Part shown: piece after piece, positions 7,318 to 9,386 of the stretch
Layout of the letters: the number at the start of each line of letters is the position of its first letter
Position numbering within the stretch: the stretch's first letter is position 1
Origin: Anaerolineae bacterium CG2_30_57_67
Lineage (GTDB): Bacteria > Chloroflexota > Anaerolineae > Anaerolineales > Villigracilaceae
Assembly: GCA_001872455.1 (NCBI GenBank)
Contig: MNXJ01000036.1
Location: 1-41,041, forward strand
Direction of reading: 5' to 3'
DNA: 41,041 bases
Translations under genes and position numbers: made by a program
The notes under the pieces: generated by a model
What the model saw: only the letters and a program-made list of their open reading frames with translations
What the model was told of the DNA's origin: nothing
Databases searched by the model: none

Positions 7318-7369
7318 AGATGATGAGTGAGGAGATGCGGAGAGAAGGAGAGAAAAAATCTCATCATCT
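7318..7369 (+). repeat. Purine-tract/pyrimidine-tract fold-back
   Basis: AGATGATGAG (7318-7327) is the exact reverse complement of CTCATCATCT (7360-7369). The left half is almost pure A/G and the right half is C/T-rich. The region forms the leader of the next gene. Confidence 0.55.
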
Positions 7370-7401
7370 CCCCATCCGCTATTCTCATACTCTCCTTCCC
7401 C

Positions 7402-8100
7402 ATGCCTTCGTTCACTGAAATTCTCGCGTGCGGCACGCTGACGCTGCAAGGACAGTTTACACTCGGCTCGAATTACACCTTTTTGGTGGAAGCGGCGCTG
7501 GAAGGTGAAACTTGCCGGGGCGTCTACAAACCCCAAAAGGGCGAACAGCCCCTGTGGGATTTCCCCGCCAACAGCCTGGCCGGGCGCGAAGTGGCCGCCT
7601 ACCGCCTGAGCGAATTTCTCGGCTGGAACTTGGTGCCGCTGACTGTTTTTCGCGCCGAGGGGCCGTTTGGCCCCGGTTCGCTGCAACAGTACATCGAATA
7701 CAACCCGAATTACCATTACTTCAACTTCAAGCCCGCCGATAAAGAGCGGTTGCGCCCGGTGGCGCTGTTTGACCTGCTCATCAACAACGCCGACCGCAAG
7801 GGCAGCCACGTTTTCTTTCAAAAACGTACCCGCCACCTGTACGCCATTGACCACGGCCTCTGTTTTCACGCCGAAGACAAACTGCGGACCGTCATTTGGG
7901 ATTTTGCCGGAGAACCGCTTCCCGCCGAGTTGCTGCCCGGCCTGCAAGCCGTCAGTCAGAACCCGCCCGCCGAACTGGCCGAATGGCTTCAGCCGGATGA
8001 GTTTTCTGCCCTGCCAGCGCGCGCTCAACGCCTGTTGGCCGAAAAAACCTTCCCCCCGCCTCCCGCCGACCGGCGCGCCTTTCCTTATCCACCGTTGTAA
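7402..8100 (+). CDS. SCO1664-family (TIGR03843) kinase-fold protein
   Basis: A 232-residue protein of the SCO1664/TIGR03843 group, which shares the PI3/PI4-kinase/HipA-like fold. Matching blocks are GSNYTFLVEA (nucleotide-loop region), GVYKPQKGEQPLWDFP with the probable ATP-contacting Lys, GREVAAYRLSEFLGW, LFDLLINNADRKGSHV (a catalytic-loop-like N..DRK) and HLYAIDHGLCFH (an Asp-His metal-binding-like motif). No substrate is established. It follows the DUF3090 gene by 100 bases. In actinomycetes the same pair lies beside mshC (mycothiol ligase), but no mshC is present here. The ATG at 7402 matches the family's N-terminus, although it is preceded by a pyrimidine tract with no Shine-Dalgarno sequence. 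Confidence 0.87.
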   Translation: MPSFTEILACGTLTLQGQFTLGSNYTFLVEAALEGETCRGVYKPQKGEQPLWDFPANSLAGREVAAYRLSEFLGWNLVPLTVFRAEGPFGPGSLQQYIEYNPNYHYFNFKPADKERLRPVALFDLLINNADRKGSHVFFQKRTRHLYAIDHGLCFHAEDKLRTVIWDFAGEPLPAELLPGLQAVSQNPPAELAEWLQPDEFSALPARAQRLLAEKTFPPPPADRRAFPYPPL

Positions 8101-8105
8101 AGGAA

Positions 8106-8296
8106 GAATGATGGTAACTGCTCAGGCATATATTTTTCCGCCACCTTGCGGCGAGATGGAAGCCCTTCCTCAGTACAAAAAAGCCCTTCGGGCTATAAGA
8201 CCGAGTCGGCTTCAGCCGACTTCCATGAACTGAGGCAGGAATTTATCCCGCCGGTGTATGAATGCAAGGCAAATGCCTGAGCAGTTACGAATGATG
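8106..8296. mobile_element. IS66-like MITE with 8-bp target-site duplication
   Basis: The element spans 8114-8288 (175 bp). Its ends are perfect 16-bp inverted repeats: GTAACTGCTCAGGCAT at 8114-8129 and its reverse complement at 8273-8288. Immediately outside lie identical 8-bp direct repeats GAATGATG (8106-8113 and 8289-8296). Ends starting GTAA plus 8-bp duplications are, from what I know of the family, typical of IS66 elements. There is no transposase; the inside holds nested palindromes (agccc/gggct around 8182-8194, agtcggct/agccgact at 8204-8221, atggaag/cttccat at 8156-8226). It inserted 13 bases after the SCO1664-family stop. Confidence 0.85.
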
Positions 8297-8360: not shown

Positions 8361-9386
8361 ATGACCCACTACAAATTGGCCTTCTTGGGATTTGGCAACG
8401 TAGGCCGCGCGCTAGCGGAGTTGCTACTGCGCAAACGCGCCGAACTGCGCGATGAGCGCGGCATCACCTTCAGCGTGACTGGCATCGCCACTGCCCGGCA
8501 TGGCATGGTCGCCAACCCCAACGGCCTCGACCTGACCGGCGCGCTCGACCTGCTGCGGACGGGCCGCCCGCTGACCCTGCTCACCAACAGCCTGGTCAGC
8601 GACTCGCTCGACTTCATCCGCAAATGCGGCGCAGACGTACTGTTTGAAAATACGCCCGTTAATTATGAAAACGGCCAGCCCGCCATTGACCATGTGCGCC
8701 TGGCGCTCGAAAACGGAATGCACGTCGCCACCGCCAACAAAGGCACCATCGTCCACGCCTACCGCGAACTGCGCGACCTGGCCGCCGCGCGGGGACGCAA
8801 ATTTTATTTTGAATCGACCGTGATGGACGGCGCGCCAATTTTCTCGCTCTTCCGCGAGGCGCTGCCCGGCGCCACCCTGAAAGGTTTTCGCGGCGTGCTG
8901 AACTCGACCACCAACCTGATTTTGACGCGCATGGAAGACGGCGACTCCTTCGACGAGGCCGTGCGCTACGCCCAGGAAATCGGCATCGCCGAAACCGACC
9001 CCTCCGGCGATATTGACGGCTGGGACGCGGCCATCAAAATCTCGGCGCTGGCAACCGTGCTGATGGACAGCCCGCTGCGCCCGCAGGATGTGCGCCGCCA
9101 GGGCATTCGCGCCATCACCCCGCAGATGGTGGCTGAAGCCAAAGCCCAGGGCAAACGCTACAAACTGGTCTGCGCCGCCCGCCGAATCGGAGAACGCCTG
9201 GAAGCCAGCCTCGCCCCCGAACTGGTCCCCGTCACCTCGCCGTTTTACGGGCTGGAAGGCACCTCCTCCGTCATCGAATTTCAGACCGACGTGCTCGGCG
9301 ACCTGACCGTGCTGGAAGCCAACCCCGGCCCGCAAACCACCGCCTACGGCCTGCTGGCCGACTGGCTCAACATCGCAAAGCTTTGA
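8361..9386 (+). CDS. hom: Homoserine dehydrogenase
   Basis: A 341-residue NAD(P)-dependent oxidoreductase that reduces L-aspartate semialdehyde to L-homoserine, on the route to threonine and methionine. The Rossmann motif GFGNVG is at residues 10-15. The conserved ANKG block (125-128) and the family signature DIDGWDAAIKIS (about 217-228, with the catalytic Lys at 226) are intact. The length fits the short form without a C-terminal ACT domain, so feedback control through that domain is not expected. The octamer repeat occupies the bases just before the ATG, and only GGA-like units could act as a ribosome site. The stop overlaps the next ATG (TGATG), so it heads a translationally coupled run reaching ubiE. 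Confidence 0.93.
   Translation: MTHYKLAFLGFGNVGRALAELLLRKRAELRDERGITFSVTGIATARHGMVANPNGLDLTGALDLLRTGRPLTLLTNSLVSDSLDFIRKCGADVLFENTPVNYENGQPAIDHVRLALENGMHVATANKGTIVHAYRELRDLAAARGRKFYFESTVMDGAPIFSLFREALPGATLKGFRGVLNSTTNLILTRMEDGDSFDEAVRYAQEIGIAETDPSGDIDGWDAAIKISALATVLMDSPLRPQDVRRQGIRAITPQMVAEAKAQGKRYKLVCAARRIGERLEASLAPELVPVTSPFYGLEGTSSVIEFQTDVLGDLTVLEANPGPQTTAYGLLADWLNIAKL

Follow-up and report, generated by a model that had tools for sequence, protein, structure and literature searches.

The 175 bp at positions 8114-8288 of the window (the whole stretch of 41,041 nucleotides analysed here, which sits on contig C62 of a 2.99-Mb host draft genome in 87 contigs) very probably constitute a non-autonomous MITE whose ends are of the IS66 type, ISBst12 (single-ORF) group, and which is moved in trans by an IS66 transposase. 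The ends are intact, copies at many sites are flanked by target duplications, relatives have empty sites, and the same bacterial family has IS66 elements with matching ends and the same duplication length. Rather than a deleted transposase, the interior is a multi-hairpin repeat that is distributed more widely in its own right. Elements of this kind are already known, and it is the modular interior, found also with other end types, that is the interesting part. The element lies between two genes and has the following layout:

7327-8100, + strand: upstream gene of 257 codons as listed, start codon uncertain, which adjoins the downstream gene in relatives too
8106-8113, no strand assigned: left 8-bp target duplication GAATGATG, from the sequence
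8114-8129, + strand: left terminal inverted repeat GTAACTGCTCAGGCAT, of IS66/ISBst12 type by comparison with IS66 loci and ISDge4
8130-8272, no strand assigned: interior, the 143 nt that separate the arms, showing no similarity to five IS66 transposases
8147-8253, + strand: multi-hairpin core repeat (model R1, 110 bits, the window copy itself being part of the model's alignment)
8168-8235, no strand assigned: closing stem CCTCAGT (8168-8174) / ACTGAGG (8229-8235), enclosing two inner hairpins, seen in folds and partly in the consensus
8182-8194, no strand assigned: inner hairpin AGCCCTTCGGGCT, from the core alignment
8204-8221, no strand assigned: inner hairpin AGTCGGCTTCAGCCGACT, with two-sided changes that keep its pairs across copies of the core alignment
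8273-8288, - strand: right terminal inverted repeat, the exact reverse complement of the left
8289-8296, no strand assigned: right 8-bp target duplication GAATGATG, from the sequence
8361-9386, + strand: downstream gene, which from a reading of its sequence we take to be homoserine dehydrogenase-like

The initial annotation had described perfect 16-bp inverted ends, an 8-bp duplication directly abutting both of them, no transposase within the 175 bp, and interior hairpins unrelated to any transposase fragment, and all of this holds. The arms at 8114-8129 and 8273-8288 are exact, GAATGATG abuts each of them, and 8 is the one duplication length that fits (8/8), the other lengths tried between 6 and 10 giving 0-1 matches. 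The element strand folds better than shuffled sequences both as DNA (z -6.0) and as RNA (z -7.3), with 0/200 shuffles as good in each. Comparison of the interior with five IS66 transposases yielded no tblastn match at E<=10, and blastn against the same five loci returned hits with E values of 0.95 and 3.3 only; an IS66 relic within the element was accordingly rejected. The single ORF of at least 80 aa that reaches into the element (TTG start, 7667-8233) enters from the upstream gene, in another frame. Promoter and terminator scans gave nothing above shuffles; the AGCCCTTCGGGCT hairpin is terminator-like on the - strand, where one such structure was found against 0.6 in shuffles, a difference that is not significant. 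Searches of plasmid and phage collections returned no match to the element. The features by which a MITE is recognised are present together: shortness, lack of a transposase gene, inverted ends with an abutting duplication, dispersed copies and an empty site.

A search of the host genome for additional copies, as proposed at annotation, gave 16 matches to the element DNA at 15 places, the window included, and an additional 41-bp match at C46:52977 without such ends. The core model gave 40 matches there, corresponding to 27 places because the palindromic model matches both strands; 22 of these, plus C9:45089, were inspected, and four weak ones (E above 2e-4) were left out. GTAAC-type ends were present at 16 of the 22 inspected core places, with a perfect 8-bp duplication in 9 of the 16. 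Among 13 host copies that were measured, the duplication was perfect in eight, 7/8 in one, 6/8 in two and poor in two, one of the latter being C32:22597, where the script missed a decayed end and a possible duplication is visible by eye. None of 156 mismatched flank pairs in the control reached 8/8, and lengths from 6 to 10 other than 8 gave no perfect match in any of the 13 copies. Three further host copies were perfect (C38, CGAAAGTC), 7/8 (C59) and without a duplication (C46:82054). The pattern extends across genomes: among 22 copies that have GTAACTGCTCAG-like ends and each represent a different core stretch, the 8-bp duplication was perfect in 14, 7/8 in three and 6/8 or worse in five, and all 14 perfect duplications differ in sequence. 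Since duplications recur in 14/22 copies and in 0/462 mismatched flank pairs of the control, chance is excluded.

Comparison of the flanking genes across relatives identified the empty site. The upstream gene and the dehydrogenase are adjacent in 22 of 30 fetched loci (host included), and the intergenic gap, counted from the stop codon to the aligned dehydrogenase start with some start codons approximate, is 260 bp in the window versus 5-161 bp (median 66) in 21 relatives. The element was not seen in any of the 21 syntenic gaps (0/21). Two of these gaps, that of G015 and that of the same-genus genome G001, align to the window flanks minus the element and one duplication, with 0/500 shuffles as good for each; the flank is rich in GAATGA-like words, and over ATGATGAAT the G015 gap matches the single copy. 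The element was inserted after the split from the sampled relatives. The initial annotation had called the insertion recent, which holds in a relative sense only: it is absent from the syntenic gap in 4/4 same-genus genomes compared; a fresh burst is a different matter and did not occur, because the closest full-length sister copies in the host genome are 92-94% identical.

IS66 ends begin GTAA, and the annotation had accordingly pointed to mobilisation by an IS66-family transposase and to a search of the lineage for full IS66 elements with matching ends. Such elements exist. Of 150 genomes in the bacterial family, 41 have the IS66 domain PF03050. A scan of 30 IS66 loci found one or more GTAACTGCTCAG-like ends (<=2 mismatches, at which single ends can be chance) at 12; the other 18, several of them cut by contig ends, have none at this limit. 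An inward pair of such ends with <=2 mismatches each was found at 7 of the 30 loci, and in four of the seven it is flanked by a perfect 8-bp duplication (L069, CATTATTT; L072, GATTTTTA; L080, CACATGGA; L081, CTTTTTTG). Two others, L070 and L075, have paired ends and no matching duplication, and L076 is cut off by the end of its contig. The element at L069 measures 1559 bp and has a single 493-aa ORF, and the proteins of L069, L070, L072 and L075 score 293-317 bits with the NCBIfam IS66 model (cut-off 180; L069, 317). Its left end has GTAACTGCTCAGGC in common with the window element, as does its right end (GTAACTGCTCAGGC); the first 14 bp of the ends of the window element are as in L069 and 12-14 bp as in L070, and past ~14 bp of the ends nothing clear is common to L069 and the window element. 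These matching ends and 8-bp duplications in the family, together with the near-identical ends of ISDge4, support IS66-type mobilisation.

The IS66 DDE domain PF03050 gave 0 matches in the host assembly. As this assembly is a draft (87 contigs) and drafts often lose repeated transposons, absence of the helper from it does not equal absence from the genome. Next to a GTAACTTCTCAGG end (C37:19469-19481), a stretch resembles residues 469-492 of the L069 protein (C37:19404-19481; 24 residues, 50% identity, E 0.07), and its position and orientation fit while the statistics are weak; that this is an IS66 C-terminal relic is doubtful. The neighbouring 89-aa IS66-like C-terminal fragment at C37:19500-19766 was considered as a partner and rejected, loci of that type showing GTATCTTCTCA beside the fragment. 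The host regions G000:C37:2372-2587, C37:19500-19766 and C72:10146-10436 hold C-terminal pieces of this other IS66-like type, whose elements seem to end in GTATCTTCTCA.

Judging from the shared ends and duplication length, an IS66 enzyme probably acts on the element, by copying or by excision. A TnpC-type IS66 transposase made elsewhere would bind the GTAACTGCTCAG ends in trans and would introduce either a copy or the element itself, once excised, at a staggered cut; repair of the cut would leave the 8-bp direct duplication.

The core repeat (8147-8253, ~107 bp) contains several small hairpins. Of the 25 pairs predicted from an alignment of 19 copies, 8 are kept despite changes on both sides in at least one copy, and some are broken in up to 6 of the 19. 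Within the family the core model matches 26 of 37 genomes (host included), outside it 1 of 24; counted over both strands and among at most 63 scored candidates per genome, the numbers are highest in G008, G027, G006, G020 and the host genome. A search with the core pattern returned 45 stretches in records named Chloroflexi, Anaerolineales, Anaerolineae, Anaerolineaceae and Brevefilum, with one 'bacterium'. Clusters of cores lie at G006:C41:1069-5336 and G006:C5:127791-129311 and look like local tandem amplification, the C41 cluster being partly spaced at ~171 bp.

Across genomes, 90 core places were compared after thinning by core sequence, by which identical copies elsewhere were dropped (e.g., several in G027) and some host places are missing. 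With three places set aside as edge cases, none of the end types was recognised at the limits used at 61 of the 90, a class in which at least three places (C59, C38 and C32:22597) do carry altered GTAAC ends. In a tree of 87 core copies, which has few columns and is poorly resolved, the GTAAC copies do not form one clade; explaining the GTAAC label takes 10 changes, of which at least 4 are forced by starred branches, and end gain is indistinguishable from end loss. Direct flank duplications scoring >=14 (14-71 bp) were found at 10 of 84 core places (6 of the 90 lack 200 bp on a side) versus 4/420 in a mismatched control. Core copies between long duplications are L029, L185, L011, L242, L012, L018, L202, L017, L214 and L191. 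Among them, L191 has GTAAC ends and an 8-bp duplication that falls inside the long repeat, the purine-rich duplication of L242 may be an ordinary intergenic repeat, and those of L012, L018, L011 and L017 look like doubled gene starts or ends. Bare cores between 14-71 bp duplications give hints of a further, non-IS66-like way of moving.

The same core also lies between other ends. Two copies in the host genome, at C67:107 and C32:56078, are enclosed by perfect 17-bp ends, GGTGATTACCCACATCT:

G000:C67:88-246 (L237): core within GGTGATTACCCACATCT ends
G000:C32:56046-56204 (L238): core within GGTGATTACCCACATCT ends

Neither of the two shows a clear duplication (6/8 at the best of 16 offsets). The first 16 bases of the GGTGATTACCCACATCT ends occur 23 times in the host genome and 31 times in the relative G011 at <=1 mismatch, and in four G011 copies a perfect 8-bp duplication lies 1-2 bases beyond the GGTGATTACCCACATCT-type ends (ATATTGAC, CCCTTTCA, ATGTCTCC and TTTGTTCA; best of 16 offsets). 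These four have a common interior unlike the core, and different interiors again are found within GGTGATTACCCACATCT-type ends in the host copies L276 and L284 and in the second copy at L266. In G008:C20 lies a 1449-bp element with ends of this type (GGTGATTACCCA) and a 7/8 flank duplication (L272, 1500-2949). Its product, a 439-aa protein, matches the IS4 family weakly (E 4e-5 at 22.6 bits, where the cut-off is 160), has no Pfam match and has no match in the host genome. A 55% identical relative of this protein, an open frame of 428 codons, is present in G011 and fits the 31 ends there. A third end type, CAAATTGCG, surrounds three core places without a clear duplication (L013, L188 and L216, the last from Brevefilum) and is only a lead. 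The core could be an independent exchangeable module between unrelated transposon ends, a tentative reading to which we give somewhat less than even weight; GGTGATTACCCACATCT-type ends also enclose other interiors. The ends of such a module would be the IS66-type GTAACTGCTCAG with its 8-bp duplications, GGTGATTACCCACATCT with a likely full-length partner that is weakly IS4-like, and perhaps CAAATTGCG.

Could the ends belong to another 8-bp-duplicating transposase family, the likeness to IS66 being convergent? The host assembly lacks IS66, its genome holds a second miniature family whose 8-bp duplications are seen in G011, and the full-length element of this second end type codes for a weakly IS4-like protein. 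However, the ends of the IS4-like element differ (GGTGATTACCCA), an IS66-coding element, L069, has the same 12-14 bp at both ends, 8-bp duplications occur in the same family, and the ends given for ISDge4 in the available part of PMC12898284 are almost the same, which together make convergence very unlikely. A further idea is that the core hairpin is the true mobile unit, moved for example by a hairpin-binding HUH enzyme, with the GTAAC ends as passengers. The 61 core places without recognised ends (at least three of which have altered GTAAC ends) and the excess of long direct flank duplications over the mismatched control would suit this idea, but the duplication in the window lies directly against the GTAAC ends and not the core, so this insertion used those ends, and the probability left to the core as the mobile unit is minimal.

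It is likewise extremely unlikely that the stretch is a structured RNA or an attenuator of the downstream gene with inverted ends by chance. Its location between two same-strand genes and its strong fold are as such an RNA would have them, but 21/21 relatives lack the element in this gap, and it is found at other places with duplications of their own, and these duplications and empty sites contradict a structured RNA as the origin of the stretch. A secondary effect of the element on expression is possible. One cobalamin riboswitch match was obtained on the - strand; an AdoCbl riboswitch was rejected, because this Rfam match (E 0.63) scores 18.7 bits, below the gathering score of 50, and is antisense to the genes.

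MITEs tied to IS66 seem hardly described: none is named in the titles and abstract openings surveyed, a scope that leaves out most of the subscription literature. We found no literature on MITEs in Anaerolineales, and the titles and abstract openings among the matches listed for MITEs in Chloroflexi name no such element; PMC10907252, from its available part, concerns another bacterium. The available part of PMC3281130 tabulates two IS66 members with an 8-bp duplication. The closest known element is ISDge4, an IS66-family member from the ISBst12 group, whose transposition has been observed and for which the accessible text of PMC12898284 gives the ends GTGACTACTCAGCA / GTAACTGCTCAGCA and an 8-base direct repeat, CCTCGATG. 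ISDge4 resembles the window element in its nearly identical ends and 8-base repeat, and the L069 element in its single transposase ORF (PMC12898284, same text); it differs from the window element in coding for its own 449-aa transposase (PMC12898284, same text), whereas the window element codes for none and has an unrelated interior.

Among miniature elements, MITEPsy1 of Pseudomonas syringae is likewise short and non-autonomous, with IS-like inverted ends, and is thought to be moved in trans; it differs in its tentative assignment ('IS5?'), its 4-nt duplication, its length of 100 nt and its observed transposition (PMC3189936, available part). The core itself is like REP repeats in being high-copy, intergenic and palindromic, but REPs, as the available part of PMC3733652 describes them, are 20-40 bp long with GTAG or CGTC tags, whereas the core is ~107 bp with several hairpins. 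The element family analysed here is a clean example: it has multiple copies, target duplications, empty sites and candidate helpers. If its interior has indeed been swapped between unrelated ends, miniature elements would grow by cargo exchange, beyond internal deletion of a single parent. TIMEs of the Tn3 family, going by the available part of PMC4133298, are comparable in that their miniature ends mobilise other DNA and give rise to mosaic elements; TIMEs differ in having Tn3 ends, whereas the window element combines IS66 ends with a hairpin-repeat interior.
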